Translations under genes and position numbers: made by a program
NCBI GenBank assembly: GCA_943704525.1
Contig: CALSCQ010002031.1
Coordinates: 1 to 38,942, forward strand
Length of the DNA stretch: 38,942 nt
Source of the DNA: Pigoraptor vietnamica
Lineage: Eukaryota; Opisthokonta; Filasterea
Direction of reading: 5' to 3'
Notes under the pieces: generated by a model
What the model saw: only the letters and a program-made list of their open reading frames with translations
Told to the model about the DNA's origin: nothing
The model's database searches: none
In this document: positions 1,111 to 36,447 of the stretch, one piece after another
Layout of the letters: every line of letters begins with the position of its first letter
How positions within the stretch are numbered: the first letter of the stretch is position 1

Positions 1111-3596
1111 TCACATTGTGAAGAGGTTGTCGTTGGCGAACATGATGTCGGCGGCCGCGGCCATCTCGTCCTGCTGCTGTTGCCGGAGCGGGTTCATCTC
1201 CATCGCCGTCGTGCGACCCGCCGCCGTCTCCTCCTCCGCGCGCTTCTTCCCCTGCGCCTTTTGACGCTTCTCCTCCTCCTTCTTGCGGTTTTTCGCGTTC
1301 TTCTTGGCGTCTTCTTCGTCCTGTTTGCGCTTCCGCTCCGCAGCCTCAATCACGGGCACGCGCACGCCCTCCGTCTTCTTCGCCGCGTAGTACGTCGTCG
1401 TGAACTGCGCCGCTGCCGCTGCCTCCTCGCTCCGCTTCTTCGCCTCCCAGTCCTTCGCGAGCGCCGCGTTCACGCCAACTTCCAGGCACTTGAACTCGAA
1501 CCGCTCCCACTCTTCCTTGTCGAGGTAGTACACAAACACGCGCCACAACAAGACAATAATGATGCCCGCGCCGATGCAGCAAGCAAACGATATGCCGATC
1601 GCGGGACCAGGCCTGCCAAGGGTAGGGAGGATGTCAGTATATGCGTGTGAATGCGGAGGTGTGTGCGCGTTTGCGTGAATGCACGTGTGTCGTAGCGGAA
1701 ACGAATGACTACGGAACGGGGCATTGCATACGCACTTCGTCTTATCCTTGCTGACGTCCGCATACGCCGTCTGCCCAACCGTTGTCCCGGCAGTGTACTG
1801 AAAGTACACGTCGTGGGGGCAGCCCTGTGCGCACCGGCACGCAGTCTGCGTCGCCAGCGTAATGGGCGCCCGGCACGTGGCCACAATGCTGTTGGGCAGA
1901 CAGGCCTGGACGTCGCTGCACCAGTGGCACGCCGTCCCGTTCAAAAACGCCACGCACGACGCACAGTCCGTCTGGAACGACTCGCACGTCGACTTGCCAT
2001 ACGGGCACGAAGGGTCCGTGGGATCGCACCGCGCGCAGCCCTCCCCGAACCACGGCGCCTTGCACTGGCACTTGCCGCACACGCATTCGGCGCGGCCGCC
2101 ATACGCCGCGTTGCAGTCCACGTCGCATTGCTTGAACGTTTCGCAGCCGCAATCGGCGCCGTCGAAGCCGGCGTAGCAGCGGCACTTCCCGCACACGCAG
2201 AGGCCGTTGCCGCTGCACTGCTTTCCGTTGGCGTCCGCCATGCAGGGGCTCGTCGGGCAGTCGCAAAACTGAGTCATGACGCGGCCTTCGTTGATCTGAA
2301 ACGTCCACCCGTCGTCGCACTTGCACCGGCCGTACCCCTCGCACGTGCCATGGCCACTGCATGGCACGCTGGCGCCCGTCGAGCACGAGCTGCTCGCGGT
2401 ATACTGCAGCGGGACGTTAACAGTCAGCAGGAGCACAACGACGAGTCTCTCACACATATGCAGGAGCGCTCACGCACGCGCACACGCACGCACACATGCC
2501 TCCCACAGCACATACCTGGCACTCGGTGCCGTCGTAGCCGGCAATGCAGTTTGTGCAGCGGCCGCAGTCGCATGTTCCTCGCCCGTTGCAGTCCTTCGGA
2601 CACGACAGCCCCGAGCAGCTCTCGCACGAGTACGTGTAGCCCTTGGTGACAGTGATGGTGAACGTGCCGGGATGTCCTGCCATGACGAGTGACACGGGGT
2701 CGGTAACCATCACGTGCGCGGGCGCGACGAGTGTAACAGCCACGGCTACGGTGGAGGTCCGCTTGGTCCCGGTCGCGTCAAGGAGGGACGCGACACGCGG
2801 ATTGATGCTGCGGTTCGGTGTGCGCGTGCGTGCGTAAGTAAAGCGTGTCCGAGCAGAGAGTAATGTTGCCGACGACGATGCATGTCACGCTACGAGTTGT
2901 TGGCACCACAGCAACACATGAAGAGCCGCGGAAGACGCACGGAAGACGCACGCACACACCTCGTGACCGACACCGTCGTCGTCTGCTTGGGGTCGGGATA
3001 GAGCTGCACCGTGTTGGCGATGCGTTTGAGGGCAAAATCGACCTCTGTCACAATGTCGCTGAAGTCGTCATTGAGGCCCATCTGCCAAAGTGACGTCACT
3101 GTGTGTCAGTGGCGCAACAACCACACGGACGCTTTTCGTTCTCGCGCACCTAGGGCCAGACTCGCACGCGCAATCACAGGCAGACAGCCCCACTCACAAA
3201 CACTTCACATTCGATCCAACTCTGATGCATGCATGAGCCCCCACACACACACACACGCACCGAAAAGCCCCTCCCTATCCGCCCGGACAGGCCCGTCGCC
3301 TCGCCATACGCCCAGTTGAGATTTGCAGACGAGCGCGCAAAGCCAAACACCGGCACAATGGCCGACTGGCGGTAGAAGCTGCTCAACATCTCAACGCTTG
3401 GATAGTCGCGATCAACAATGTTGGCGACATTGCCGGACAGGGCGCACTTGTCGTTCGCCGGGGCTTCGATGCCAGCGCGCAGCTGCGCAGATGGGGCACG
3501 CGGGCTGTGGATGAGACTAATGCGCACGGTGCTCCTCTGAATATCAGACGTCTGACGCGAAATTTGAGAGAGGTGACTGGTTGTGTGCGTGCGTGC

Positions 3597-3654
<58 letters not shown>

Positions 3655-4023
3655 GGTGTGCATGCACGCGAGCGATCACAACCGCACAGGGAGCCCTCTG
3701 AACCCACCCCATCCATGGCCACGTGATATCCGGCGTTTGTAAGAACAAACAGCTGCGCGTGAATTTCGACAATCAGCACTCAGGCCCAAATCGTCCAAGA
3801 CAGAGGCACACTCGGGCGCAAATTGTCTTTTGGGCTGAGGCACACTCGGGGCGTATATTCACATGTGGCACACACGGAACCGCGCGTATTCACACTGCAC
3901 GCATGAGAGATGCGGGACCAGCTAAAATCACAGACATGAGTCCATCCACAAACGCAAGGAAGACCTCAGTCGTGGCCGTCATAGGATCTCCCCCCCCCCC
4001 CCCCCCGCAATCGACTCTATCGT

Positions 4024-4054
<31 letters not shown>

Positions 4055-4182
4055 TAGAGAGAGAGATGCGCAACTCACCACGCGTCGGCTGTTTGACCGC
4101 CACTGAATGGCAGTGTCACACTGCACCACCTGGAGCATTGCGTCGAGGCCCGCCTACGGAGAGAGGGATTGCCTTAACGTCA

Positions 4183-4249
<67 letters not shown>

Positions 4250-5624
4250 CACACACAACACACACACACACACAAAACACACGTACACAGGGGACGCTGC
4301 GCACTCACGTGAGGGACGTCGTAGTCTCCGATCGGCCGCATGGCGCCCAACGCCGTCGCCCACGCCGTCTTGTCGCTCGTTAGGGGCACGTCGTTCTGGA
4401 ACATGTACGTCTTCTGCGCGCTGTCGCCGTTCGGCCACTCGTACGACGGGTCCGCGAAGGGCGCGATCGGCTTCTCCACAAAAGATCCGAGCCCGATCTG
4501 CACCGTGCCGTTCGTCGCGCTAGAGTTGAAGACGGCCGTGGCAATCGCACCCGCAAGCGAGCGGAGAGTGAACAGCTGGTTCGTCATTGCAGCCGTGCGG
4601 TCCACGAGGAAATACACGTCGACGTCAACGACGAGGCGGGGCGACACGTTCACCACGACCGTGCGCGGAATGCCTGCGTTACCCGCGCGTCAAACAAAGC
4701 AAAGGCGCCTTGAAATGGCGGGGGGCGTCGCTCAAAGCGAGCGCGCACATGCAACACGGCGCGCACCGACAAACAAATGGAATCGACTGCACGAGAATAT
4801 CTCACGGGAAAACGGAGAAAACCACGCACGCACCCCTTTCGCTATGAGAAAAACGGGCGCGCACACATGACTCCAGACAGAAGGCACACGCACCCTTTCG
4901 AAGGTTCATGGTCGCGGCCTTAGGGTCGAAAAGCGGGAGCACGGGGAGCCCAAACTGCGTGTCGTTCGTCCCCGCGGTGACGGCCGTAGTGCCGGTGGGA
5001 TACTTCCACCCATAGCCACAGAAGGTCGCCTCCGTCAGAGGCACGCACGACGACCACGACTGCGGAGACGACGGATCGGTTGTGGGCTTGTCAAAACATG
5101 CTGGGCGAATGCCGTTCCCGCGAACGCAACTCGACACATGGCACTCATGCACACACTCGCACACACGCAACGCACGTTAGACACCCATTAGTGAGTCGCA
5201 CCTCACACCAGCCGCATGTCGTTGTCTGACGGAGACAAGCATTGCATGTTTGAAGGTCCCATCGCGAGCAGTCTTCGCTCTGCGCTGCCACCAGAGACAC
5301 TGTGGCACACATTTGCGGCGATTAGCCATTCGTAGCCAATTCTACCACGTTCAATTGCCTCTCCACAACAAGCACACGCGCGCGCCCTTCCACTCTCTTC
5401 AATTGCCTCACACAACAACACACACACACACGCCCTTCCGCTCTATTGCTGTCTCGGACAAGGCATTGCTGTCTCGGACAAGTACAAAACAAACTGTCGC
5501 TCATACGCCCACAATCTGCTCAACAGAGGCGCATCGCAAGCCACACACACGCACCGCTCCCAAAGACTGCAATCAAGGCGACGATCGTCCTAATGGACGC
5601 GCTCGTTCGCGCGACGCGCGCCAT
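1111..5624 (-). CDS. Integrin beta subunit, divergent, 11 exons
   Basis: Single-pass adhesion receptor chain expected to pair with an integrin alpha. Exons on the minus strand: 5624-5555, 5299-5202, 5143-4894, 4673-4309, 4153-4079, 3752-3708, 3551-3261, 3081-2960, 2807-2516, 2403-1736, 1612-1111. They sum to 2778 nt, closing at 925 residues. The 3551 acceptor could instead be 3536. Order: signal peptide (MARVARTSASIRTIVALIAV), PSI-like domain with TCNACL and CGWC, I-like (beta-A) domain from about residue 155 with VDVYFLVD and IGLGSFVEK, at least four cysteine-rich I-EGF modules (CSGHGTC, CSGNGLCVCGKC), beta-tail-like cysteines, membrane span about 763-785, and a 140-residue tail. The I-like domain has T, A, H and N at four of the five MIDAS positions and N, Q at the ADMIDAS aspartates. 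The specificity-loop disulfide is absent. The tail keeps a membrane-proximal D..EW..F pattern, has no NPxY, and ends in a Lys/Glu/Ala-rich stretch. The start codon has a good context (gccgccATGG). Integrin beta identity is firm; the distal partner is inferred. Confidence 0.9.
3599..3651. repeat. (TG)n tract in integrin beta intron
   Basis: A TG run of about 50 bases lies in the intron between the 45-nt exon (3708-3752) and the exon at 3261-3551. Confidence 0.95.
3990..4066. repeat. Poly-C run followed by (GA)n in integrin beta intron
   Basis: A 17-base C run at 3990-4006, then a GA-rich stretch at about 4025-4066 that ends just short of the donor site at 4078. On the sense strand the intron therefore begins with a CT-rich segment directly after the donor. 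Confidence 0.95.
4184..4277. repeat. (CA)n tract in integrin beta intron
   Basis: A CA tract of about 90 bases with small interruptions fills most of the 154-nt intron at 4154-4308. On the sense strand it is TG-rich and lies 25 bases upstream of the acceptor. Confidence 0.95.
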
Positions 5625-6554
5625 GGCGGCGCTGACTTTTGCGGTTTTCTGTGTGTGCGATCACACTTCCATCGGCGACATTCAAACTTCGACCAAAACG
5701 CACACCACAAACGAACCAGTATTGCGATTTGCTGTGTTGAGACGTATGCGTCTATCACGGGGGAGAAATAAGGGTCCGCGAGTTGTGCTTGGGAGAGTGC
5801 GGAGGGTATATGTGCGTGGAGTGCGTGTGCGCGGAGATGTGGGGCATCCCTTGCACGCGCCGCGCCAAAAAAGCCATCGCACAACAATTGGTCGGGAGTG
5901 TGCGGGATGCATTTTCTACTTATTTGATACCAAAGAATAAACGACTAATGTATTACTAAAGCAATATTTTCATGGTTCTCATAATATGCATTATTCATCA
6001 TAATAAAGTATAATTGTACTATTTATCTTCTGAAAATAATTTACATAAACACGCTCCGCTCGGGATGATGATCCTCTGTTAATCATCCGTGGACACTTTT
6101 ATTCAATACAAACTTCATATATTTTAATAATCAAATAAATTCAGCGAGCCCGGTACACCCAAAGGTCCCCACCCTCTCAATAGCCACTGTTTACCCCCCT
6201 CTTTGTCCCCGTGCCTGCTCTGTCTCACACACGCACGCACACACACGCTACCACACACACACTGTCTCTCTCTCTCTTTCGCTTCCCTCTCGCACACTTA
6301 CCTTTGCCGTGTCCCCTCACTGCCAACCTCTCTTCTAAGAACACCACAATCTCCTTTATCTCTGTTGCTGGCGCGCTTTTCGGAGTGCGCGCGCGTGTCG
6401 ACTGTACAGCTCCTTTTTTTTTCCCCGCACACTATGTGGGCCCTCAGCAATTGAGTTTTCTTCGCATACGGACGTCCGCTTTGTCCCATCGGGCGGGATT
6501 CGCCCTCCCTTCATTTTGTTGTGAACATCAGCGCCGTCGTGCGCGCAGAGTGGG
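5625..6554. promoter_or_regulatory. Divergent intergenic region between integrin beta and alpha
   Basis: The start codons of the two integrin genes face away from each other across 930 bases, so this segment must hold both promoters. It contains an inverted CCAAT box (ATTGG at 5887-5891), a sharply AT-rich island at about 5930-6150, a CA-rich and CT-rich stretch at 6220-6300, and a pyrimidine run near 6410-6425 on the alpha side. No convincing TATA box position could be fixed. No gene is supported: the plus-strand frame starting near 5593 with a signal-like sequence is antisense to integrin beta exon 1. That the region is co-regulatory is inferred from geometry only. Confidence 0.6.
5930..6150. 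other. AT-rich island in divergent integrin promoter region
   Basis: About 220 bases rich in TAATA, ATTATT and AATAAA words stand out against GC-rich surroundings. It begins about 310 bases upstream of the integrin beta start and ends about 400 bases upstream of the integrin alpha start. It may be a nucleosome-poor promoter element or an old insertion. Nothing coding is seen in it. Confidence 0.7.
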
Positions 6555-9500
6555 ATGGGTAGCGTGCGCACCCTCCGCACGGCACTGTGGCTGGTATTCG
6601 CCGTCGCCGCGTGTTTTCGCGCGTCCTCCGCCACGTCGCCCTACTTTTTCACGGACCCCGAGTTTGTGATCGCGGGGCCTGTGAGTGGATCGGGCGATGA
6701 TTTTGCCAAATCGCTCGTGGCCGTTGAGAGGTCAGTAGCGCACTTTGCGACGGCGCGTTTTTCATTCCCTTTCTTGATGTCTTCCACCCTGGTTCGATAC
6801 CTCTCTCCCACCCCTCTTTTCCTTCACACTCCAAGCACACACACACACACACGCTCCCTTTTTTTTTTAATTTCCCGTCCCTAACTGTGCGTCTGCGCCT
6901 ATTTGCGCAGGACGGGCGACCACGACGACGAAACCAACGCCATGGTCTACGTCGCCGCGCCCCGCGCAAACAACGGCGTCGGCGCACTCTACGCTTACCG
7001 CGTGGAGAACGTCATCTTCACGGCCGCCTCGCGCTTTAGTGCGATGGCCGCGCTGATGCCCAACGCGACGACGGACCTCTATTCCCCCGGCAACGTGACG
7101 ATGCTGGGCGTCGATCTCGTGCCGGGCACGTTCATTCCTGGCGGTCTCAACCAGCACATTCTCACGGGGGCGCCCTTTGTCGCGCGTCACTCGCCCGAAA
7201 ACATTGTCGTGAACGCGACCCGCCTCGGCTACGCGCGCGGCACGTGCATGTACCTCAGCAGCGGAGCCGCTCCGCCCGTTCCGCCGGTCGCAGCCGCCAG
7301 CAGTGCGGCGCAGTCGTCGTCGGCGGCCGCCGCTACGCCGTCGTCCACTGCGCAGGCCTCGTCCACGTGGGCCTCGGTGTCTTCGTCGTCGTTCACCGCC
7401 ACCATGTCCGCAACGGCATCTTCTGCGAGTGCCTCCGCCACCACCACCGGCGTCGCCCAGCCACCGCCGTTTGAGTGGGCGGTCCTCTCGTGCCCCGTAA
7501 CGACCCCTTCGGACGCGATCATGCAGGGCGACGTGTACGCCTTCCGCGCTGATCAGTACATTGGCTTCTCGAACGGCGGATCGTTCTTTGCGCCGTCGTC
7601 GTCCGTGTCGCTGTGCCGCAGCGTCCCAGGTGCCGTCGCACCGCTCACGGACTGCAACGCGCAGCTCGGCGCGTCGACAACCAAGGGCCGCCTGCGCGCA
7701 CGCGTGGACGCTTCGGACGCCGTCGACATTGTTGCGGGCGCGCCGCTTGCGGAGGCGGCGATTGCGTACTCGCTCCCCTCTGGATCCTACCCCGGATGGA
7801 CGGCTGCGATTCGGCCGTCGAGTGCCGGCGACGGCCCTCAGTACTTTGGGACGTCGGTTGCGTCGGGCGCTTCGATTGACGGGGACGGGCTGGACGGTGT
7901 GTGCGTGTGGAACTGTTTTCTTGTTTTGCGTCACCGTGTTGGGCGTTGCAGGGCGCTGAGGCGCGTTGTCTCGCTGTCGCTGACGCTCTTCTTGTTGTGC
8001 TCTGCGCAGACGTCGTGGTCGGGTCTCCCCGCGCCACTGATGAAGGCTCGATGGTGGCTTACGCGGGGTCGATTACAGGATATTCCCGTGGGTACCCTTG
8101 TCCAATTTCATGTGCTCGCGCGCACTACACACACATGCGCGTCAATGGCACCCCTGTCTCGCGGTCGCACTGCACACACGTGCGCGTAGCACCCCCTTGA
8201 GCGCTGCTTGATTTGGGGCGTGAACTTGCACAAACGCTTGGCTGACAAGCGCCTGTTACTCATGTTATGTGCAGTGTCCCCGAACCCCACGGAGATTTTC
8301 CGCGCATACGGCACGCAATCCGGCGCCTATTTTGGCTGGAAGGTCCTCTTGAGCGACGTGCTTGCGACGGACGCCGACTTCAGCGCGCGGTGAGTGCATC
8401 TCTATTTTTCAGCGTCGTGTGGCCACAACACTGGACCGTCGCCATATCCCAATATCTTTTTTTTCTAATCTCTGATTGTGGGCACTTTTATCTTTGCTGC
8501 TGTGAGGATCCCATGCTCACGAACGCCGTGCGTCCTTCTTTATAGCCTTGCGGACGTGGTCGTATCCGCGCCCCTCGAGTCCGTGTCGCTGACACCGGGC
8601 GCCGCGCCCTCCCCGGATGTCGGATGCATCTACGTCTTCCTCGGATCCGGCGTCAAGTCAGGCCCCTTTGTCCCGTACGCCCACCGCATCTGCGGCACCG
8701 TTGCCGGCGGTCGCTTTGGCTATTCGCTCGCGTCTCTCGGTGACGTCGATCTCGACGGCCTCATGGGTGCGTGCAGAGCGCACTCGGCTGTTGTATGTTT
8801 CTCTCACGTGTGTATGTTTCTGTGGGCACGCGCGTGTCCTGTCATTTGTGCTGTTATGCCACGTGCGTTTTGCTCTAATGCGCCTCGCGCGTTCAGACTT
8901 TGCCGTCGGCGCGCCGTTCTCGAGCAACTCGAACGGCGACATGAACGCGGGCTGCGTGCACGTGTTCTTCGGCCGCAAGGGTACGCTTCCGTCCACCGCC
9001 GACCAGGTCATTTGCGGTGCTGTGGCGCAGGCGCGGTACGGCCTCTCTATGGGCGGCGGTATCGACCTCACCAAGATGGACGGCTTTGACAAGGCGTACA
9101 ACGGTGCGTGTCTAGACTGGCGTCGCCTGTCCTTGTATTGCTTGGGAACGTCGCTTGTTGTTATATGTTGCAATTTCCCCATTTGTTCTTAAAAAAATGC
9201 GCGCTTTCTTTTTTCTGCCCCCAGATCTAATTGTTGGCAGTGTCGGCGAGCGCAAAGTCCGCGTGTTCCGCGCAAAGGCCGTGGCGAAGCTCAGCGTCGC
9301 TGCGTCGGCAGACACCGTTTCGTACGTCTGGGACGGACGCTTCCCCAAGTTCACGTTCACGGTGTCCAACGAGGGCCCTTCTGCGGCGACGCGCGTTATT
9401 GTCGATTACACGGCGCGCTACACGTGCGGCGACCAGAGTGGCGTGTGCCGTCCAGAGTCGGGCACGCTTGCGCTTCCCACCATTGACGTCGGAGGGTCCA

Positions 9501-12259
9501 AATCGGCCTCTACTCTGCTGACGCGAGCGTATAATTCGACGTGCTGCGACCTCGTCCTGACGGCGACGCTGAGCGATCGCAACGCAGGCGCGGAGATGGT
9601 CATCTCGCGCGATTCGCGGACGACGCTCACGCCTCCCCTGCGCCTGGCGGGTTGCGTCAATACGACGCTGTCGCCCGTGTCCGCGTGCTCGGTCGCCGAG
9701 CTCTCGCTCAGGGACTTTGTCATGCGCCCTGCACCGGCCATTCTTGGGCAGCCCGTCGTCGTCGCCGGCACCGTCTCTCTCGACTCGTGGCGCGGCATTG
9801 GCGATTCAATCGGTCGCGTGCACGTGTCGCTCAAGGTGCCGGCGGGCGCCACCGTCAAGACGGACGCGAGCACGAACGTCGACTGCCGCGTCGCGAGTCC
9901 CTCGGTGCCTTCGTCGTCGTCTGACAACGTTGGCGTGGGAGCCGGCGTCGTGGCCATCGACTGCTACCTCCAATCTGAGCCAGGACCCGCGCGCCGCCTG
10001 CACCCCTTTGAGGTGTCGCTGGACACGTCCCGTGTGGACCTCGTGTCGAAGGCGATCGCCGTCTCTGCCACGCTGATTGCGAACATACGGGAGACTCGCC
10101 TCGACGACAATGTCGGTTCGGCTTCTGTCGACGTCGCTCCGGCGAAGGTGGTTCTCACGAGCGCGCCCTCCGCGTCGCGCGTCGTCGGCAGCTACCCCTT
10201 CTCGTTTGTCGCGATCGCGCTGAACAAGGGCGGGCGCGGCGCGTTTGGAATGGGCGTGTCGCTCGTGTTTCCCGTCTTGGACGCCTACGTCGGCGCTATT
10301 GCCGTGGATGGCGGCTCGTGCGGCGACATGTCTTCCGGCGGTGTGCTAGTGTGCACCGCGGACGTAATTCCTCCCGGCGGTGCGCTGACCGTGCGCGTGT
10401 CTGGCGTGCCGCGCGGCGTCTCTGACAAGGACGGCGCGATTTCCATGACTGCGTCCATCTCGAGCGATCGCGAGGGGTCGGCAGATCCTACGGCGGCGTC
10501 GTCGTTGACGTCACTGAGGCGAACTCTGCCCAAGTCGGCCTACACGACTCCGCGTCAGACGGACGACAGTGACGTTGGGTGGGCTTTGTTTATCGGCGTG
10601 TTCTGCGGCCTCATTTTTCTGGTCCTATTCTTCGCGGGCCTCTACTATCTCGGGCTGCTGCACCGCCGCCCTTCGCCGCCCTGGGAGATGCTCTTCACGC
10701 CGGAAGAGCGCGCCAAGGACGAGGAGAAGCGGCGCAAGAAGGAGGAGGCGAGACTTGCCGCCAAGCTGGCCGAGGAGGAGCGCAAGGCGGAGCTGCTTGC
10801 GCGGAAGCGGCGCGGGTCCGACACGGACTACGGACGTGGCGTCGGGGATATCACCGTGTCCGCCGCCGAGATCGCGATGGAACCCGGCACGCTCCAGCGC
10901 CGGTTCTCGATCGGCGCGCTCCCCTCCGCCGTCATGCGCTCGCAGGAGGAGCACGAGGAGAAGAAAATGCGCCGCGCGTCGTCGGTGCCGGATTTCATTG
11001 CGCTGTTTGTGCCGCCCCCGCCGAAAGGCAAGGAGAGGGCCAAGGAACCGGAGGCCAAGCAGACCAAGGCCGCCCCGCACGTGTACGAGGACGTCGGCCC
11101 GTCGTCGACGCCCAAGGCCGCGCCGAAGGTCCACGTCTACGAGGACATTGGGCCGACGCCCGCAAAGGCGCCACCCGTGTACGAGGAAGTCGGGCCAGTG
11201 ATCGCTGCGGCAGCGGGGATAGCGGTGTCTCCGTCGGCCGCCAAGTCGCCCAAGAAGACTGTTGCGTTCAAAGGCACCATCAAGGACGACCCAAACAAGA
11301 AGCAGTTCCCGAAGGAGGGCAAGGAATCTGCGCCGCCGCCAATGACAGAGTCGCCGTCCGGCAGCGGCAGCGGCAGCGGCAGCGACGAGGAGGATGAGGG
11401 CCGCCGCCTCCCCACGGGGGCCGTTGACGTGGCGTTGGCCTTGCGCGTCAAGGCCGAGGAGATGTCTGGTACGCGCGAGCGCGTGGACACGAACGAGTTT
11501 GGGACGGTTGCGCGCGCTGCCGTCGCCGACTTCCGAAAGTCGATGGCTGCGCTCGAATCGCTCGATGGTGTCCTGACGGAGACGCTAGACGCGTCCGGTT
11601 CTTCTGCGCCGTCGACGCTTTCGAAGGCGCCCGCGGAGGTCTCCGCCGTGTCTGCCGCGGCACTGAGCGAGAAGCTGGAGAAGGAGAGCGCGCAACAGAA
11701 GGCGGCGTCGACGATGTACGCCACGCCCATCAAGCACAAGGGAGGAGACCACGCGTACGAGGAGCTCGATCCCTTGCCCGCACCTTCTGGCTATGCCCAG
11801 GTCGTCTTTGATAAGACGAAGGAGGGCTCGTCGTCGCCCGCACCCGCGCCAAAGGCGGATGCTGCGCCACTGCCACCGCCGCCCGCACCTAAAGTTGAAG
11901 AGCCGGCCGCTCCCCCGCCCCCTCCCCCGGCGCCCAAGATGGAAGAGCCTGTTGCAGCGCCTCCGCCTCCTCCACCCGCACCCAAAGTGGAGGAGCCGGT
12001 CGCTGCTCCCCCTCCCCCTCCCCCGGCGCCCAAGATGGAAGAGCCGGCCGCGGCGCCGCCTCCACCACCGCCCGCGCCTCCCGCTGCTGGTCCCCCTCCG
12101 CCACCAGCGCCGCCCGTTGCCGCTGGACCGCCGCCTCCCCCGGCACCTCCCGCTGCGGGTCCCCCTCCGCCTCCCCCGGCACCTCCTGCTGCTGGACCTC
12201 CGCCGCCCCCCGCGCCACCGGCCGCTGGACCGCCGCCTCCCCCGCCGCCGCCCATGTGA
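6555..12259 (+). CDS. Integrin alpha subunit with giant cytoplasmic tail
   Basis: Single-pass adhesion receptor chain. Exons: 6555-6730, 6911-7896, 8010-8087, 8275-8389, 8546-8766, 8897-9103, 9225-12259 (4818 nt, 1605 residues). Signal peptide about residues 1-26. FG-GAP propeller repeats follow with cation loops DGDGLDDVVVG (382-392) and DVDLDGLMDFAVGAP (518-532), plus less canonical loops such as DLTKMDGF near 585. A Ser/Ala/Thr-rich, mucin-like insertion covers about 183-240. After the propeller come beta-sandwich leg regions (about 610-1030), then a membrane span at about 1045-1072. The juxtamembrane GFFKR is degenerate (LGLLHRR). The tail of about 530 residues has a Lys/Glu-rich start, three VYE[D/E][V/I]GP motifs (Y1215, Y1233, Y1247), a related AYEELDP (Y1439), and a proline-rich end (about 1473-1605) of PAPK[V/M]EEP and AGPPPPPAPP repeats. 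Metazoan alpha tails are usually only tens of residues. The neighbour integrin beta is the natural partner. Family assignment is firm; tail function is inferred. Confidence 0.92.
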
Positions 12260-12839: not shown

Positions 12840-13589
12840 CCGGGGGTTCTCAAGTGGCGGAAAACGCGAAGGTGCGTTGGCCGGGAACGTCCTTTACGGG
12901 CTTTGAAAATTCTGTGCATGATAGTGCGTGGTCCATAGTGTCGCGGGCCGCTTATCTCTGTCGGTGAATCTGTGTACTGATGAGCCCGGCCGGGGCTGTC
13001 GTGAGCGGGCTGCTCGAAACTGATTCAATTTTCTCCGTACGCCGCAGCGGGCTCCCGTAAGCTAAACTCGACGTGGGTTTCATAAAACAGGCCGCGACGG
13101 CCTCCGAGAACGAACTGTTGGTTGATTTGGTGAGTCCCTGAAACTGAAGCAGCCCCGCGCGGGCCGGCCGTGGGCCACCGGCGCCGCATGTCGACTGTGG
13201 GCTGCATATAAAAATTTCTTAATTACTGCAATCAGTTTGCACGGCTCCTGGGAGCGTCTGTGCACGTGTGTCGTAATGCGTTCCAAAGTTACTTCCGGCG
13301 GCATGAATGATGTCGTAAGTTTGTGTGCATGCTTCTTGCCGGCCCCGGCCCGGCGCATGCAGCTGCAGGACATGTTATCTGAATTCTAACTTACTCCGCT
13401 TCATTTGCCGTAGGTCTCCGGACTGCTTTGACCTTATGACGACGTCATTGCCGACTAAGGGGAGGAGACCGGCTCTTCTCGCTAGCGGCGCGCTGCGCGA
13501 CACGACGTGTAATGCTGCGTGACACATGAACCGACGTTTGTTGCGCGGGCACTAATAGGCCCAGTGCGGGCCGTTGGCCTCCGTGAGAG

Positions 13590-13594
13590 CCAAT
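13590..13594 (+). promoter_or_regulatory. CCAAT box upstream of GT49 gene
   Basis: GAGCCAATCAGCG matches the NF-Y consensus core (CCAATCA/G) and lies 49 bases before the first in-frame ATG. NF-Y binding to such boxes is established knowledge; its use here is inference. Confidence 0.45.
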
Positions 13595-13642
13595 CAGCGC
13601 CTGTCCTCGGCTGCCCTACAGTCCAGCGCGGAACGCGGACGG

Positions 13643-15638
13643 ATGGAATCGTGTCTCTGTGCCAGCATGGCACGCGCAGTGGCCGTGCGCGCCCTCAGGC
13701 TCCACGTGCAGGCGATCAAGATCTTCGTCGCGATCATCGCGCTCGGGCTCGTGCTCTTCTTCTACTCTGCGTCCCGCGAAGCCTCCGTGTCCACGCGCAT
13801 CACAATCTACCAGTTCTCGACAGCCATGCGACACCGCGCGCACGCCGCTGGCGGCACCGCGGTGATATCTCGGGACCCTTCTGCTGAAGCGTTGAACCAC
13901 GGCGAAGGGCAGAGCAGGATGGCGTCCGTCTCCGTGCGCCAGAACGACATGCCCGCCGTGTTGCCAGAGTCTACGGTCGTGCGTGTCGTCGAGGCCTTGA
14001 CGCACGTGCCCGTCTCCCCCTTTGAAGAGCGAGACACGGCAAAGCTGCCGCACCAAGCAGTGTGGCAGTCGATCGCCGACGCTTTTCGGACTGCGCCACC
14101 CCCGGGCCTTCCAGCAGTTGCCAGCGACGCCGTTGCATCAAACGATACGTCGGGCGTGGTCCCGGGATGGAACGGCCCTCACCCCCCTCCCCCGCGACTG
14201 CGTCTTTCGATTACAGAGCTCGCAAACGGCCTCACGCTCCTGCCGGACGACGTCGTCTTGTGTCTGTCGGCGACGGTCGACATGATCGACTCGATGGCGC
14301 GGGTGCGGGCGGGGTGGAACGGACCCGCCGCGCTCGGCATCTTCTGCACGCACCAGACGTGCGTGGACGAGGTGTACGCCAACTTGCTGCATCTCGCTGG
14401 CCGCGTGCGCAACACGGCCGTCGTCGTCGTGCTCGCCGACCCGAGCGTGCTCTATCCCATCAATGCGATGCGCAACATCGTCGCCGACTACGTCCCCGCT
14501 GGACGGGGGTACGGCGTGCTGTGGCTGGACTCCGACATGCTCCTTTCCGACGGCTCGTATGAGGTCATTCGCCGCGCGTACGTCGAAGGTCGCGCCGCCA
14601 ACGCCGTGGAGAGGCGCCTGCTGGTGATCCCCTGTTTTGAGTTCGGGACGAACTCGTACGACATTGACCACGCGAACCCCGACACGATACCGCGGAACAT
14701 GCTTGCGCTTATTCGCCTGGCGCGACAGGGCCTTCTGCGGCCATCCAAGATGCGGTACTACCCGCAGGGGCACAGGTGTGTTGGGGGCGCACTGCAGTTG
14801 CATCGCACGCTGAACTGACGAGCGCCGTGTGCCCGGCCGTCTGTGTCAGAAGCTGGTTCCCTCTGCATTCACCCTCTCGCCACGTTCACTCACCATCATT
14901 CCTTGTGTTCGTCGCGCTTGCAGTTGCACCGAGTATCGCCGGTGGGTTTTCGGCGACGACAAAGTGCCGTGGAAGCAGTCCACGTACAACTGGGAGTACG
15001 AGCCATTCTTCGTCGTTAACAAGACGGACGATCTGCCCGGTCTCGACGAATCGTACAGCTTTTGGGGCGGCGACAAGCAGTCCATGTGCCTGCTCCTCTA
15101 CTCGACCGGGTATCGCTTCTACACGGTACCGATGGTCTTCAGCGTGCACATGGCGCATCCCGACCGACGCAAGACGGCGACGGCCGCAGGCGAGGCGCAG
15201 ATCATCGCGAATCGTCGCATGTTCGCCGACTTCCGCCGAGAGGTCGCGCACCGCTACAAGATCGACGTCGACAGCCTCGCGTTCAAGCGCGTGGGCTTCC
15301 CCAAGTACACCATCCCGGAACGGCTGCGTGCTGTGGGAAGTGGCGTCCCACTCCGCGTCCGAGAAGCGCACAAGCCACAGTACTTGCAGCCCTCCGCCAA
15401 TGGCGCGGACGCACCGCAGGGGAACGAGTCGAGAGAGGGTGTGATGCCAATCACACTGAAGCGACGCCAGCGCGTGACAGGAGATGATGCGCGCGAAGGA
15501 TCTGCGGCGGACATTGGGCGCATCCCTCGTCGGCGCCTTGCTCGGCCTCCGCCTGCCGGGGTTGAGCCCGATCCCCCTCGAGATCTCGTGCACGTGCCTG
15601 CAGCGCACGACCCGGCTGAGGGAAAGAAGGAGCCGTGA
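13643..15638 (+). CDS. Type II membrane glycosyltransferase, GT49 (LARGE/B4GAT1-like)
   Basis: Exons 13643-14775 and 14924-15638, 615 residues. The start is the first ATG of the frame; a second ATG at 13667 has a slightly better context and would lose eight residues. A short basic N-terminus precedes a signal anchor at about residues 24-44, as in Golgi enzymes. A DxD-type motif, LWLDSDM (D296, D298), fits the metal-nucleotide-sugar site. After it come the family-like blocks YEPFFVV, DESYSFWGGDK and FSVHMAH, which resemble the acceptor half of GT49 proteins (WEP, YG.dk, H..H). In animals GT49 domains build the xylose-glucuronate chains on dystroglycan. The C-terminal 150 residues are basic, Pro-rich and not recognisable. 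It lies downstream of integrin alpha on the same strand. The GT49 call rests on remembered motif patterns; the acceptor here is unknown. Confidence 0.7.
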
Positions 15639-16205
15639 GGCTCGCGAAAACGCGGGAGCGCTATGTGATGGAATGAATAACCAACTGAATCTGACACGCT
15701 GATTAGAGTACCAGACAGTTCCGCTCCGTCGGCTGTGGACGCTTTTGGCCAATTCGTATTCGCTAAAGCATTTAGTTGACCCACGAGCTCGATGTGATAT
15801 GGCGACCCTGCAGAGCCTTGAAAGCGAGGAGGACACGCACAGGCACACGCGCACACAGTAAATGAGGACGGAGGACGCGGCACACACACACACACACTCT
15901 GCAAGTGTAACAGTGTCCCGAGGGTCCGATGGCTCGGGTTGTCACGTGACTTGCGCTTTCGGATTGGGGCAGAGGCGCGCGCTGTGATTGGTCCAAACAG
16001 CGGCAGTAATTTTTCCCTCTGCGTTCGGAGTGTGTCGGAGGCTAAAAATGTGCGCAGACACGCGCCCACACACACTCACACACATACACACGCATACCGC
16101 GCGCCTATTGTGTAACCCTCCCACGCAAGTACTTCTCTCGACCCGCCACCTATTTTTTATTTTTCTCTTTTGGCTTTTGCTTGTGCTTCGTCAGAAAGGC
16201 CAAAG
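15639..16205. promoter_or_regulatory. Intergenic region and presumed promoter of GH28-like gene
   Basis: No gene is supported. CCAAT core words occur at 15749-15753 and, inverted, at 15987-15991 (GTGATTGGTCC). TGTAACA lies at 15906-15912. Short CA tracts are at 15883-15896 and 16069-16090. A pyrimidine-rich run at 16150-16175 lies just before the start codon region, where transcription may begin. Confidence 0.45.
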
Positions 16206-17570
16206 ATGCGTGCCGCAGTGACTTTTGCGTGCGTCATTCTCGCGCTGTGCGCGGCGCACTCGCACGCGGCCGTGAACAACATTCTGGACTATGGCGCCGT
16301 GGCGAACGACGACAGCGATGCCGCGTGCACGGCCAATTCGAACGCGATTCTAAAGGCGCTCCTTGCGGCGAATGCAACCGCACCTTCGGATCCCGTGCGC
16401 GAGGCCCTCGTGCCCGCGGACGCAAAGTTCTGCGTGCGGAACACGACGGCGAGCGGCCTCTTCTCCGTGACGCTGCGCATTGACGGCTACCTCATCCTCT
16501 CCAACAATCGCAAGGCGTGGCCGAAGGACGGCGACGCCGGGTGCGGGCTCGCGGCGATCCAGATTGCCGACACGGTCGGTGTGACGATCACGGGCAACGG
16601 CCTTATCGACGGGCAGGGCTACAACTGGTGGTGGGACACGATTCTCACGGGGACGGACGACCGCCCGTCGCTGATTTGGCTGTACCAGTGCACGGATATT
16701 GTCATGACGGACCTCCGCATGCGCGACTCGCCGCTGTACCACGTCTACATGAACGACATTGTGCGCGCGCACGTGCGGAACGTCGACATTCGCGTCGACG
16801 TCACGAAGCAGAAGGAGCTTCTTGGACAGCACGGCCTCCTCTCGGAGCTCGGCATCCCTACTTTCCCGCTCAACACGGACGGCATCGACCCCGCGGGCAG
16901 CGACGTCCTGATCGAGAACGTGACGATCATCAACTTTGACGACGCCGTCGCCGTCAAGCCGACGCGCGTGGGCCGTCGTTACTCGTCGTGCAGCAGCAAC
17001 ATTACGGTGCGGGACGCGTACGTGGAGTACGGCGTCGGCATGACGATTGGCTCTGTGCCTCCCAACCCCAACGTCAACTGCGTGCGCAACGTGACCTTCG
17101 AGCGCATCCGCTTCAAGAACGCGCTCAAGGCCATCTACGTCAAGTCGAATCCGGGGACGGCGGGGACGGGCATCATCGACAACATCACGTATCGCGACAT
17201 CACGGTCGACGGGAGCCTCTGGTACCCGATCTTCATCGGTCCCCAGCAGCAGAAGCAGCCCCGCACCAACGGCACCGGCTGCTCGTTCCTCTTCCCCGTC
17301 GTCAAGGCGTGTCCCACGCAGCCGCGAGTCGCCATGACGAACATTCGTCTGGAGAACGTGCACATGACAGGCGGCGTCTTCCTTCCTGGCGTGATCCTCT
17401 GCGACCCCGCGCAGCCGTGCTCCGGTTTCGAGTTTTTGAACGTCACAAACACTGGCGAGTTTGTCGTTCAGAAGGACTACTATTGCCAGAACGTCGTGAG
17501 CTCGACGACGTCGAACTCGAAGCCGGCCGTGCCGTGCTTTAGCGAAGTGCCTCCGCCCAGCGACGACTGA
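16206..17570 (+). CDS. Secreted GH28-like (polygalacturonase-family) beta-helix protein
   Basis: Single exon, 454 residues. A clear signal peptide (about 1-20, hydrophobic VTFACVILALCAAHSHA) indicates secretion. The body has the parallel beta-helix pattern of the pectin-lyase-like superfamily, opening with ILDYGAVAND and a GNGLIDGQG turn. GH28 hydrolases cleave alpha-1,4-galacturonan or related polymers using NTD, DD, GHG and RIK motifs. NTDGID (N223-D225) and FDDAVAVK (D245, D246) are present, but the GHG site reads GVGMTIGS (G276-V277-G278) and the RIK site reads YVK (311-313), so the family's histidine and arginine are missing. Several N-x-S/T sequons suit a secreted glycoprotein. The intronless structure contrasts with most neighbours and could reflect retroposition or horizontal transfer. 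Family is confident; pectinolytic activity is doubtful. Confidence 0.85.
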   Translation: MRAAVTFACVILALCAAHSHAAVNNILDYGAVANDDSDAACTANSNAILKALLAANATAPSDPVREALVPADAKFCVRNTTASGLFSVTLRIDGYLILSNNRKAWPKDGDAGCGLAAIQIADTVGVTITGNGLIDGQGYNWWWDTILTGTDDRPSLIWLYQCTDIVMTDLRMRDSPLYHVYMNDIVRAHVRNVDIRVDVTKQKELLGQHGLLSELGIPTFPLNTDGIDPAGSDVLIENVTIINFDDAVAVKPTRVGRRYSSCSSNITVRDAYVEYGVGMTIGSVPPNPNVNCVRNVTFERIRFKNALKAIYVKSNPGTAGTGIIDNITYRDITVDGSLWYPIFIGPQQQKQPRTNGTGCSFLFPVVKACPTQPRVAMTNIRLENVHMTGGVFLPGVILCDPAQPCSGFEFLNVTNTGEFVVQKDYYCQNVVSSTTSNSKPAVPCFSEVPPPSDD

Positions 17571-20296: not shown

Positions 20297-22312
20297 TCAC
20301 GTGGCGATCGCTATGCTTGCGAGCACGTATTCGCTGTTCGGTTCCATCGATCCCTCGATTGCGATGCGCATCGCCGCAACAATCCGGCGGGGCACGTACT
20401 TAGTGACGGCGGTGCCGAGCACTCCAAAGCTCGCCGCACGTTCAAACTGCCTGCCATCGGCCGACACGAGCAGCGACGCACCGCTGATGCGTCCAGTGCT
20501 GGTGCCTGGCTCGCCCGTCTTGACCGTGATCGACGACACGGCGTGCGGCTTCGCGAATGTGAACTGGCAGTATTCGCCCGCCTCGCCGCGCGACAGTCGC
20601 ACGAGTCCGTCGCCGCCGTACATGGCGAGGGGGTCGCCGACGACGACGCCGACGCTGCACGTGGCCGTTGCGATGGGATTTCCGTTGTCGTATGCGGCTG
20701 TGGCCACCTTCACGAGGGAGCCGTCTTGGGCGACCTCCACCTTTGTGGGCGCCTCGACGAACTGCGTCTTGCCGACTAAGGAGCTCTCCTGCGCAAACGG
20801 AAGGTCTGGATGAGGCGAAGCACACGCCACGCGCACACAAGCGTGAATTGCGTCTCTGGTGCCGTCGACCACTGCGAGCAATTTGACCTGCACGTGATCC
20901 GGGTGACGCACCTTGCCGATGTGGTGGAATAGCTTCGGGACGTTTTTGACGTCGTCGAATTGGTAGCGCGTGACCTGCCACAGGTACATGAGGAGGTCGA
21001 CGGGGTGTTGGTTGTAGTACCGCGCCGTGAAGGAGGCAAAGTCGGCGGCGTCGGCGGCACGTAACAGCTTGCCGATAAACCCGTACGGCGAAAATGCGAG
21101 AATGACCCAGTTCCCGTGTGCGTGTTGGCCGACCGTGGAGCTGCGGGGCACGCGAAAGTGGAAGTAGGGCTTAGAGGGCGAAGCCCATTGCAAACAGGTT
21201 GTGTTACAGCGAAGAGGGGTGCTGTTCCAATTATATTCGGCGCCCCGCACGTAGACCCACCTTATCTGCAGCGGCCACCCCCTGTTCGCCAGGACGTCGT
21301 CCTCCATTTGCAGATAGTACTGCGGCGCATGCGTCGCGACGGCGTAATTGACGAGGAGCGCATAGTCCACGCACTGCTTGGACCGCCACTGACGGCGCGG
21401 CAGCGGGTCGTCGTAGTTGGGCGGAAGTGACGCCTCATCGAACTTCGGGTAGAATGAAGGGTGCGCCCGCACAAGGTCCAGCGCGCCCGATGCCACGAGT
21501 GACGGGTACCGCTGTGCAATTTCCGACAGCAGCGCCTGCGTCGACTCTTCGCGCCCGCCGGCATCCGCGACAAAAACCACGACCGAAACAACGCCCTTCT
21601 CAAGCTCGCGGTGCTCGCAGCCCTTCACGAGTGAGTCGAGTGTGGCGAAGAGGTATTCCCTCGTCTTGGTCGGCCGCGTGATTGTGGGCACTCCCACCGT
21701 TATAACCGGCTGTCGCACCCGCGCACGTGAAGTCGCTGTTCGCAGGAAGGCAGTTTTCTCTTCGTATTAGTACGTTACACGGCAAACACAGTCACGAGAT
21801 ACAAGTCGCAGTCATCGAGCACGGTTACGCAGACACGTCAACAGCAGCTGAGGGAAACAAAGGGCGCACCTCGTGTTTGCGAGATGAGAAGGGGTATGTT
21901 CGCCGAGGTGTCACCCCAGGGCAGGGTGGCCGCGAGCCCTTCCTCACGGGCCGCTGCTCGTTTGGCCGGGTGGGACGGCGGCCGTTGCTTGGGTTGCTGC
22001 ATCGACTGAAACATCGACGAAAGCGTTCCTGTCGAAAGAGGAAAGGACCGAGGGAAATATGAGAGAAACTCACGCGGGTAGCGAAGTAAGACAATGTCCT
22101 TTTGACGGGGGGCCTTCCTACGCAGCAGACGTCGGTGGTTCACTGGCTCCAGACTGTGACTGACACGGCTCTGAATGCTGCCGTCGCATCCCCTCACCAT
22201 CGCTGTAGAGAAAGACGAGAAGCAACACGGTCAGCGCAACTGCCGAGAGGGGCAGAAGGCGGCGGTCTCCGCGTGCGCAGCCACGACAGAAGCGAATGCT
22301 GGCCATCATCAT
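20297..22312 (-). CDS. MGAT4-like beta-1,4-GlcNAc transferase (GT54), type II membrane
   Basis: In animals MGAT4 enzymes add a GlcNAc branch to the alpha-1,3 mannose arm of N-glycans in the Golgi. Minus-strand exons 22312-22198, 22028-21870, 21735-20297; 1713 nt, 570 residues. The start is the first of three consecutive ATG codons. The signal anchor (LLPLSAVALTVLLLVFLYS) sits in exon 1 at about residues 17-37. Family blocks are ITVGVPTITRP at the start of the catalytic domain, YYLQMEDDV with the nucleotide-sugar/metal-site acids (E236, D237, D238), FSPYGFIGKLLRAAD and KLFHHIGKVRHP. The C-terminal 130 residues form a beta-sandwich-like module (GEYCQFTFAKP, ISGASLLVSADGRQFE) like the CBM32-type lectin domain of animal MGAT4. 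Two CCAAT words (22326-22330, 22334-22338) lie just upstream of the start. GT54 is well supported; branch specificity is inferred. Confidence 0.86.
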
Positions 22313-23689: not shown

Positions 23690-26600
23690 GTCCACGCACC
23701 GCTGCCGCCCTCCTCCGGGCCACGCAGCACGGCGTAGATTTGCGAAGGCGTGCCGTAGGGAAGCTTCTCGATGGGAATGACGCGCTCGAGGACAAAGGCG
23801 CCGTCAACGGCAAGGTCCACGCTCACGTGCTCCAGGAACTGAGACAAGAACAGAAGAGATGCGTCAGGGTCAGATGCACTTGCCCGCACACTCACACACT
23901 CACACGTTCGCAGCAAGCACGCGCGCAGATACATGCGGCTTCGAGTGTCTACACACACACATCAAATCCAGGCATATGAAATGGCACCCACCTGGTCGTT
24001 GAGCGTGTTCGTGACGTCGTACTGCAGCACGACGTGCGAGTTGAACGTGTGCTTGGTGCACGTGACCACATACTCCGTCTCGGCCTCCGTGAGCGGATGG
24101 GGTTTGGAAGACTTGAACAGCCCGCCGAGCGCTGCGGTGCGACAAGACCGGGGCGTAAGCTTCGACAGCAATGCACCGCACATTCGCGCGTCGCAAAAAA
24201 CACAGGCATTTACGCGTGAAATAACAACCGACTGTCAAAGGTTATAGAGGCAGACGACGACAGGGAGAAAGAGGTCGCGTACCGTTGATGGCGGGAATCG
24301 CGGCGAGGCGCGTGGCAGTGACTTCCTGCGAGTTGACCTCCGGCTTGGCCTTTGCAGGCGCCGCGAGCACCTCGGCCGTAGCTGCGCGGGTGAAGGTTTT
24401 GTGGTGAGACAGGGTACGAGGCAAGGAACGATTGTAGAAAGCGACACGCACACACACCGGCGCAACAGGAGCACACGGCCACATGCACGCCAGCGCTCCA
24501 CACAACACAGCAGCACGCACTCTTCTTGGCAACGGCCTCTGGCGTGACGTTCGTCACAATCGGCACCGTCTTGATGTTGAAGGGGACGTCCGCGGGCGAC
24601 CGGATGTACTCCTGGAGGGCGCGCTCGAGACCCGCCATCGACACCATGACGTCTGCGGCGCAGGGAAGTGCGATCAGAGAGGACACGGAACGCACGCACC
24701 CGCGCGAAAGCCGCACAATGGCATCGCACACTTCTGTTCGCACGCAACGGGCGCCGCACTCTAAAGCAGAGCCTCACAAGACCATAAACTCACCATCGAG
24801 GACGAAGCGGCGCGCAACGGCGGGGTCACCCTTGAGCAAGGTGAGTGCGAGCGTCGCCCTGTCGCGCACTTCGTCATCCTGGTCCTCGAGGCATCTGCGG
24901 GGCATCAACACGCACCGGGTGAGTAACAATTCGCAGTAACGAGCAGGCAACAACGCGGAAAACTTCTTAGAGCTCCGCCCACTGCGACTCTGTCGACGCT
25001 GACGTGTGTACCCACCGAGAGAGGAGAATGAGGATGCTCGGGAGAAGCTTCTCCGACTGCGCACCAAACTTCGCGAGGGCCGAAACGGCGGCCGCGCGCA
25101 CGGTTGCGTTCTCGAGAATGATCCTGAGGTCATCAATGAAAGAGAATCAGCGCTTGTTTACGCAAGGGCTCTAGTTTTCTCTCAGCAACCAATTCCATCG
25201 GAGAAAACGAACACCAGCGAACCCTGCGCGACCACGTAGGCACTTGTATGGCCGCACGTGACACCGAGAACACACAGCAAGGACGCACCGGTTGTAGATG
25301 TGGCGGATGTACTTCGACGGCGTCTTCGAGAGGGGCCCAAGGCGCCCGAGCAGCGCAAGCACGCGCGTGGAGAGGTTCGTGTACTCGCAGTCCTCGATAA
25401 ACTCGCTCAGGTGGGACAGGCCTGGCAGACGAAATGGCATAGTTAGGAAGGAGCATAACGCAACCCAGTCGCACTGACACAGATAGATCGGCGACACACA
25501 TCGACAGGAGCAACTATCAACAACCGGCCGCACACGAGCAACACATACGCATACACACACCACACCACACCACAAACACAACACACGCACCCGTCTCCTT
25601 CGCCTCGGGGATCTCGGCGATAATGCCCGAGATGGTGTCGACGATCGCCTTCTTGTACTCGTAGCCGCCCTCGTCGCGAAGGACGCCCGACAGGAATCCC
25701 ATCATGACGGCCTGCTTGCTGGGGAACTTGAGGCACAGCGAGCGGATGGCGTCAATGACGACAATCTTAAACTCGTCCGAAATCTCCGACATGAACGACG
25801 AGATCTGCTTCATGAGCCGCTCGATCGACCCCTCGCTGCCCGTCTTGAGTAGCGTCGTGATCGCAAGCGTCGCAATGCTCCGGTTCGAGTCGGTGATGAG
25901 ATTCTCCATGTCCAGATTGCATGACGTCACCGCCAGCGGACGCGTCAGGGCCACCTGCACAGCGCGCACGAAACGCACGGCCACGACACGGGTCAGCAGA
26001 CGAAAGGTGGCACTCGTTATACATGATACATCAGAGAGCGCACAGCCACAGTCCATAGGATCCAAGAGCGGAAGATACAAGGGACGCGGCCGCACCTTGT
26101 TGAGTGAGCGGACGGCGGCGAAGCGCAGCGTCGGCTTGGGCGAGCTGAGGAACATTTGGAGCACCGAGATGGCGGGAGTGAGTTCCCGCGCGGTGGCGCC
26201 AGAGAGGGAGCAGATGGCGCGCGCGGCCTCGTAGACGACCATTTCGCTCTTGTGGCGCAGGCACTGTTCGAGGAAATCAAAGAGCATCTTCATCGACTGT
26301 GCTCGGGAGAGAGAGGGAGAAAGAGGTAGAAAGAGGGAAAATTAGTGACTCGGGACGCAGGTTCATATGGAAAGCAGACGTGCACGCATTGCATCAACTG
26401 CTCATTGCATTCACCGCTCAACCACGCGCGAGACACACACAGACACTACAGATACACACACACGCGCGCGCGCACACACACACACACAGACACAGACACA
26501 AATACACACACAAAAACCCCACCTGCTCGTCGCCGTCGTCGAGCGCCTGCGACGCATAGCGGATAAGCAGGCAGTACGCGTGGGGCGACCGCAGCGAGCC

Positions 26601-29505: not shown

Positions 29506-30527
29506 ATGGTGAAGCACAACAATATGGTGCCCAATGGGCACTTCCACAAGCAGTGGCAGCGCTACGTCAAGACGTGGTTCGACCAGCCAGGCCGCAAGAA
29601 GCGCAGGTGCGTGCCGTGCATCCACTGTGCACGAGCGAGTGCATCGTCTTACTTCGTGTTGTCACTTGCTTTGTCTTGATGGCATCAATTGCTTTCATTC
29701 TCTCTCGGTTTGTCGTCAAGGGCGTGTTGACGAAATGTTTTTTGGTACCACGTGGTTGGCTTCAATGGTTCTGATGTGGGCCGTGTCGTCTTGCTGTTCA
29801 GGCGTCTTGCGCGCCAGAAGAAGGCGCTCGCCATCGCGCCCCGCCCGACGGGTGGCGTTCTCCGCCCCGCCGTTCGCTCCCAGACGAACAAGTACAACAC
29901 GAAGATCCGCGCGGGCCGTGGCTTCACGCTTGAGGAGCTCAAGGTGGGCGCCGTGCTCGGGTCGGAATTGTGCGGCAGTGTTGGCATATTCTTCGGTGAT
30001 ATGTGTGTGTGTGGCGTGTGATTCATGGGGTCGCGTGTTCGGAGTATGGCCGGATGCACGGGCCATTCTGCTTGCTGTTGTGAAGTCGCGTGTCTGATGT
30101 GTGCGTGTGCGTGTGTGCGTCTTTGCAGGAGGCTGGCATCAACCGCCTCGTTGCGTCCACGATCGGCATTGCCGTGGACCACCGCCGGACGAACAAGTCT
30201 GTGGAGGGCCTCCAGGCCAACGTGGCGCGCCTCAAGGAGTACAAGAGCAAGCTCATTGTGTTCCCGCGCCGCGCCAACAAGCCCAAGGCCGGCGACGCGA
30301 CGCCCGCCGAGGTGAAGACGGCCGCCCAGCTCAAGGGCGAGCCCCTCCCCGTCGTGCAGGTGCACCCGCGCCTCAAGGCCCGCAAGATCACGGAGGACGA
30401 GGTCAAGCACTCTGCCTTCCGCACGCTGCGCATTGCCCGCGCCGACGCGCGCCTTGTCGGCATCCGCGAGAAGCGCCGCAAGCAGAAGGAGGAGGAGGAG
30501 AAGATGGCCAAGAAGTCGAAGGATTAG
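29506..30527 (+). CDS. RPL13: 60S ribosomal protein eL13 (RPL13)
   Basis: Structural protein of the large ribosomal subunit. Exons 29506-29606, 29802-29943, 30129-30527; 642 nt, 213 residues, close to the animal length of about 211. Conserved blocks are [16 protein letters not shown] with DQPGRKKRR at the N-terminus, [48 protein letters not shown], and [20 protein letters not shown], followed by a Lys/Glu-rich end. The start codon is immediately preceded by a pyrimidine-rich stretch and CACAG, so a 5' untranslated intron ending at 29505 is possible. It is divergent from coatomer gamma and convergent with RPS16, the second ribosomal protein gene of the window. Confidence 0.97.
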
Positions 30528-36083: not shown

Positions 36084-36447
36084 GGTGACGCACTTTGCGT
36101 GGCCGCAACAACTAAAGATGCGTTGTTGGTTCCGTCATAAGGGGAAAAAAACCTTCGAACTTCGACAGCTGTTGTAGTAACACTTATCCTCCGAGATCTC
36201 GCTTGTTACACTCTTTGTGCGATAACCTCATTGTTACACCACCGTCACGCAACTGACACAGACACACACGCACACACTGACGCACACCCCTCACACACTC
36301 GCTCGCTCGCTCGAACCGTGCTCCAGTGCACATTCATCTCAACGATTTATGGAGAACTTCCCAAATCAAGTGAATCCAACCCCTTCCACTTGCTCCACTT
36401 GCCGACTGTACCTCCGCATCCTCAACAGCCACTCCGTTAACAGGAGG
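36084..36447. promoter_or_regulatory. Divergent promoter region with repeated TGTAACA-type motif
   Basis: Between the UBL4A-like start and the next gene's chosen start. GTAACAC at 36177-36183, TGTTACAC at 36204-36211 and TGTTACACC at 36232-36240 give three copies within 65 bases. A CA-rich stretch follows at 36255-36300. TTAACAG at about 36436-36442 could be a 3' splice site of a leader intron. Confidence 0.5.

Follow-up and report, generated by a model that had tools for sequence, protein, structure and literature searches.

The contig of Pigoraptor vietnamica analyzed here (38,942 nucleotides, referred to as the window) encodes a chain that is an integrin beta by descent and fold but not a canonical MIDAS integrin, because three of its five MIDAS side chains are replaced (S123 by Ala, E220 by His and D251 by Asn, in beta3 numbering). 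These three residues are metal ligands in canonical integrin beta chains. That the chain has lost its usual Mg2+ site is a well-supported prediction, since it follows from the sequence and from conservation of the substitutions in two further proteins. The beta tail has lost the NPxY motifs, and the adjoining alpha gene encodes a chain with an altered GFFKR motif and a long tail; these points go beyond the first-pass annotation of this DNA.

The beta gene (1111..5624, minus strand) comprises 11 exons, which form a single open frame of 874 residues, and all ten introns of the spliced model are of the GT..AG type. Its product is composed of a signal peptide, a PSI-like domain, a beta I (VWA) domain within a PSI/hybrid headpiece fold, a hybrid domain, a cysteine-rich stalk, a single transmembrane segment (TM) with a juxtamembrane D-x-x-E-W/F-x-R-F motif, and an atypical tail. 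The first-pass annotation had called the beta I domain unmistakable and, indeed, residues 129–328 match PF00362 (E 2.1e-40), while phmmer aligned residues 33–485 with PDB integrin beta-2 (E 3.5e-32). Pfam detected EGF_2 matches in the stalk; I-EGF_1 stayed under its cut-off. The interval proposed for the domain, 4079–4673, corresponds to exon 4 (4309..4673, minus strand) plus exon 5 (4079..4153, minus strand; AGLDAMLQVVQCDTAIQWRSNSRRV), and the small exon mentioned with it likewise matches our exon 6 (3708..3752, minus strand; LFVLTNAGYHVAMDG). Residue numbers given earlier are 28 above those of the 874-residue model throughout, so the earlier model had a longer N-terminus. Exon 7 (3261..3482, minus strand) starts with Leu274-Arg275, the latter being a basic residue offset by one from the position of beta3 Arg261, which we take to be an alpha/beta interface residue.

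Exon 4 encodes the first half of the beta I domain, including D136-R-T138-A-A140, N143-Q144, E178, D228, D230, P232 and H233. According to the alignment, D-R-T-A-A occupies the DxSxS position (4588..4602, minus strand; codons of D136, T138 and A140 at 4600-4602, 4594-4596 and 4588-4590), and Asn-Gln stands in place of the ADMIDAS Asp-Asp pair (4576..4581, minus strand; N143 at 4579-4581, Q144 at 4576-4578). In the stretch D-Y-D-V-P-H (4309..4326, minus strand), the Glu220 position is taken by His (H233, 4309-4311) and the Asn215 position by Asp, while N264 in exon 6 (3735-3737) stands at the Asp251 position. Pairing by phmmer with the solved integrin beta-2 sets DRTAAM against DLSYSM, VPHAGLDAM against APEGGLDAM and TNAGYH against TDDGFH. 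The earlier claims that DxSxS reads D-R-T-A-A, that the Glu of PEGG is His, that the Asp of TTDA is Asn in the small exon and that the ADMIDAS aspartates are Asn and Gln are all borne out, and the wording that the domain "lacks most" of these residues was right: two of the five MIDAS side chains (D136 and T138) and neither of the two ADMIDAS acids remain. D228 at the Asn215 position is a further substitution that had escaped notice. With S123, E220 and D251 gone, the head would hold no Mg2+ at MIDAS, and it would likewise hold no Ca2+ at ADMIDAS; D136 and T138 may still permit weak metal binding.

An error of the gene model, with the acids supplied by alternative exons or other splice sites, would be conceivable in such an intron-rich gene, for which no P. 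vietnamica transcript was found, and alternative exons restoring the acids had been named in the first-pass annotation as an observation that would overturn the claim. Five introns were scanned for AG..GT segments carrying acid motifs: intron 3753-4078 contains 13 segments with a DxSxS-like string and intron 4674-4893 four TDA-like ones, while the other three gave none. The longest candidates, inspected by eye, lack flanking beta I sequence. Exon 4 ends with the His codon, the Asn lies inside exon 6, and two homologous proteins (P0001 and P0002, see below) carry the same residues, P0001 in the same spliced context. We therefore give this explanation practically no weight.

The losses were viewed against a site table of 45 rows, which were picked by similarity to the window chain; the last two of 44 protein-search matches (P0043 and P0044) were left out, and three incomplete sequences (P0010, P0041 and P0042) were excluded from the counts over 39 rows and from the tree. 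All 39 complete rows outside the trio formed by the window chain, P0001 and P0002 keep the five MIDAS positions, whereas 22 of them have both ADMIDAS acids and 11 have neither. Within this set, MIDAS loss is thus exceptional and ADMIDAS loss is not, and the latter was rejected as a diagnostic trait. The specificity-loop cysteines, reported as gone, are indeed absent, but their loss had to be dismissed as a special trait as well: 20 of 43 rows lack them, including Syssomonas P0026 and three further beta chains of the P. vietnamica genome (C661, C928 and C373, the last represented by P0012). As a side observation, an insect row (P0042, a flea beta-nu-like fragment) also carries Asn in place of Asp251, which may represent a separate loss within insects.

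P0001 and P0002 are the best two of the 44 matches and score far above the rest. P0001, from P. chileana, covers 71% of the query at 71% identity, and P0002 covers 96% at 39%. E220>H, D251>N and N215>D are present in both, as in the window chain: DYDVPH is found in the window chain and P0001 and DFDAPH in P0002, and the Asn at position 251 lies in LTNAGYH in P0001 and in LTNEGYH in P0002. P0001 covers the chain from downstream of the DxSxS stretch onwards; in P0002 this stretch reads D-A-N-S-G and one ADMIDAS Asp is kept. A predicted fold was obtained for P0002, not for the window chain. In a tree computed with 18 trait columns removed and midpoint-rooted for drawing only, the trio forms a single clade (100/100, stem 1.46). 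The remaining four unicellular-holozoan rows form a clade of their own (99/91), and all seven are separate from the other 35 rows (100/98, under the midpoint root). This root leaves the sequence of the deepest branchings uncertain, and the letter composition is odd in the window chain, P0001 and P0020, while P0039 and P0016 have long branches. Since the clade holds with the trait columns removed, the shared residues probably arose once, as judged from these alignments, and then persisted as the DxSxS loop diverged. The branch is defined by three sequences: a search with a profile of the trio passed only P0001 and a trout beta, and thus yielded no fourth member. Protein, profile and alpha searches each scored about 8,000 candidates, those with the most words in common with the query; no matching row bears the name Capsaspora, Ministeria or Creolimax, many rows being unnamed.

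So many motif losses in one protein could also be a sign of relaxed selection or of a decaying gene. However, all 11 exons are intact, and the two Pigoraptor species are identical at 111 of 153 residues (73%) in the shared part of the I domain and at 182 of 242 (75%) in the stalk. Moreover, the same substitutions recur in a clade of three sequences, which speaks against decay, and we regard it as very improbable.

The third, synergistic metal site would persist in modified form, because E178, D228, D230 and the carbonyl of P232 remain, the carboxylate having shifted from position 220 to 215. With His entering position 220, a remodelled site composed of E178, D228, D230 and H233 likely survives, so that the head would keep one metal and its fold and lose the Glu that links this metal to the MIDAS ion. 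A bolder proposal is that the head still grips a different metal, Zn2+ or Mn2+, by D228, D230, E178 and H233, with N264 nearby, and that this ion serves ligand binding. N>D and E>H co-occur and are invariant in the trio although the MIDAS loop varies (DRTAA versus DANSG), and all 44 rows with a letter at position 217 keep Asp there. However, the site coincides with the synergistic one, which is not known to contact ligand in integrins studied so far, and we consider a ligand-serving ion unlikely.

Departure from the canonical state extends to the cytoplasmic end. Exon 11 (1111..1612, minus strand) encodes the TM, the juxtamembrane LDKEEWERFE, a charged segment and a tail with the C-terminus ADIMFANDNLFTM, which is held in common with P. 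chileana; 22 of the 28 aligned residues among the last 30 are conserved between the two species. No NPxY/F motif for talin and kindlin and no match to PF08725 was detected in this tail, and NPxY is likewise missing from the tail of P0002. The tetrapeptide NPLR within residues 845-852 was rejected as an NPxY motif; P. chileana has NVLR instead. According to the parts of PMC6450878 consulted, beta4 and beta8 also lack NPXY. The beta tail encoded in the window would not recruit talin.

Canonical components are encoded in the same genome (32.5 Mb, 1,395 contigs; the window is contig C829). A search for a second beta gene that keeps MIDAS had been suggested, and three were found: those on C661, C928 and C373 retain MIDAS, ADMIDAS and NPxY, their DKKEWERFE-type stretch being followed by two NP(L/I)Y motifs. 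Exons of the C373 gene score singly just below the PF00362 cut-off, while its protein P0012 reaches 139.6 bits. P0012 is listed under Opistho-1 and agrees with C373 at 98, 100 and 98% identity in three ungapped blocks within exons, which are 51, 56 and 44 residues long; longer blocks score lower since they run through introns. A talin gene is located on contig C232 (E 4.0e-48). The search for FG-GAP repeats gave 11 matches on 7 contigs, of which C584, C547, C1022 and C819 were read at larger extent and the other three as short first-look loci, among them C1014, whose match is on the minus strand and which was read on the plus strand. The genes on C584 and C547 look like GPI-specific phospholipase D, and C1022 is the single other alpha identified besides that of the window; its propeller as query retrieved C1022 itself and a weak match to C584. 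The number of alpha genes is a lower bound, because the window alpha is absent from the FG-GAP match list. PF08441 gave no match genome-wide, the controls included, so this negative is uninformative. As to names, Opistho-1 is P. vietnamica, Opistho-2 P. chileana and Colp-12 Syssomonas multiformis (PMC7147346, as far as seen), and the P. vietnamica genome is among those sequenced in PMC9492541, also seen in part.

An integrin alpha gene lies head-to-head with the beta gene (6555..12259, plus strand; 7 exons, 1605 residues). Residues 366-620 match PDB integrin alpha-5 (E 4.9e-19), and an FG-GAP propeller with Ca2+ loops is present (PF01839, E 3.3e-8). Its last exon (9225..12259, plus strand) encodes the stalk, the TM, GLLHR instead of GFFKR and a tail of 531 residues. 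KxGFFKR is thus absent after the TM, where YLGLLHRR is found, whereas the C1022 alpha, as read from its unjoined exons, has RYGFFKRK and a short tail. The long tail contains four Y-E-[DE]-hydrophobic motifs (YEDV, YEDI, YEEV and YEEL) and nine stretches of at least five prolines each; four such tyrosine motifs occurred in none of 10,000 shuffles of the tail. It might signal via phosphotyrosine (SH2) and proline-binding partners, as the motifs suggest, but these motifs could also belong to disordered sequence without signalling use. Among the named sequences of 41 matches to the alpha chain no filasterean was found, the best match being 34% identical over 20% of the query, and many of the 41 carry bacterial names. 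Both tails contain E/K/R-rich charged segments (alpha residues about 1088-1125, beta residues about 796-836), which are perhaps helical and could lie against each other.

The two start codons are separated by 930 bp (5625..6554) with an AT-rich, single-copy core: 5840-6199 has 35-38% GC with flanks of about 55%, and is a possible shared promoter region for both integrin genes. Elsewhere on the contig we noted a GT49/LARGE-type glycosyltransferase (13559-14818), a GH28 hydrolase (16116-17570) and an MGAT4-type glycosyltransferase (20297-21766). Housekeeping neighbours are an Adaptin-N/coatomer-type gene (25517-26341) and ribosomal proteins L13e (30084-30527) and S9/S16 (31690-32142); an open frame of 888 residues (36226-38892) gave no Pfam hit at E 1e-4.

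The beta chain retains its fold, stalk cysteines, TM and LDKEEWERFE but has lost both functional ends, as might be expected of an assembly partner, decoy or dominant-negative form that binds the canonical alpha (C1022) and sequesters it or escorts it along the secretory pathway, with no ligand of its own. However, an alpha gene that also departs from the canonical tail adjoins head-to-head, and the beta C-terminus is conserved between both Pigoraptor species, which makes such a role rather improbable. We favour, with some confidence, that the MIDAS-less beta pairs with the adjoining alpha, to which the gene arrangement and the departure of both chains from the canonical tail point, and that the pair would engage its partners without an Mg2+ bridge and signal via the alpha tail. 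The suggestion that the chain binds by another mechanism, or acts in assembly or signalling only, finds partial support, in that it would fit the predicted loss of the usual Mg2+ site. More tentatively, this may be a second, ancient type of integrin that diverged ahead of the separation of filastereans from Syssomonas and that dropped Mg2+ bridging and talin in favour of an Asp/Asp/Glu/His metal-remodelled receptor with phosphotyrosine/proline signalling by the alpha chain.

Integrins are usually known by metal-dependent ligand binding and talin linkage. A conserved branch without either trait, existing beside canonical integrins in a single-celled relative of animals, would show that the scaffold serves without them, and makes early integrin roles before, or besides, matrix adhesion testable. 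The literature consulted on MIDAS loss, protist integrins and Pigoraptor (including PMC7147346, PMC8061703, PMC2397394, PMC6889490, PMC6450878 and PMC9492541, seen in part and with subscription papers mostly outside its scope) did not mention any integrin beta devoid of MIDAS, and the word "integrin" does not occur in the main text of PMC9492541.

Among known systems, the C661, C928 and C373 chains resemble the window beta in domain order, in the DKKEWERFE-type juxtamembrane stretch and in the absence of specificity-loop cysteines, but differ in that MIDAS DxT/SxS, ADMIDAS DD, Glu220, TDAD and two NPxY motifs are intact. Several insect rows and Syssomonas P0026 have likewise lost the ADMIDAS acids, but keep all five MIDAS positions. 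The beta tails of Capsaspora owczarzaki, also a filasterean, recruit talin via NPXY/F, unlike the window tail (PMC6450878, in the parts seen; the comparison concerns tails). By analogy, the nearest precedent for the window beta is beta8 (ITGB8). Its D8/D9 residues are Asn, so that it is without the ADMIDAS acid pair and the ADMIDAS ion, and it has no NPXY and uses Band 4.1 instead of recruiting talin (PMC6889490 and PMC6450878, each as partly available). In contrast to the window chain with its replaced S123, E220 and D251, however, beta8 keeps its MIDAS, through which it binds RGD ligand.
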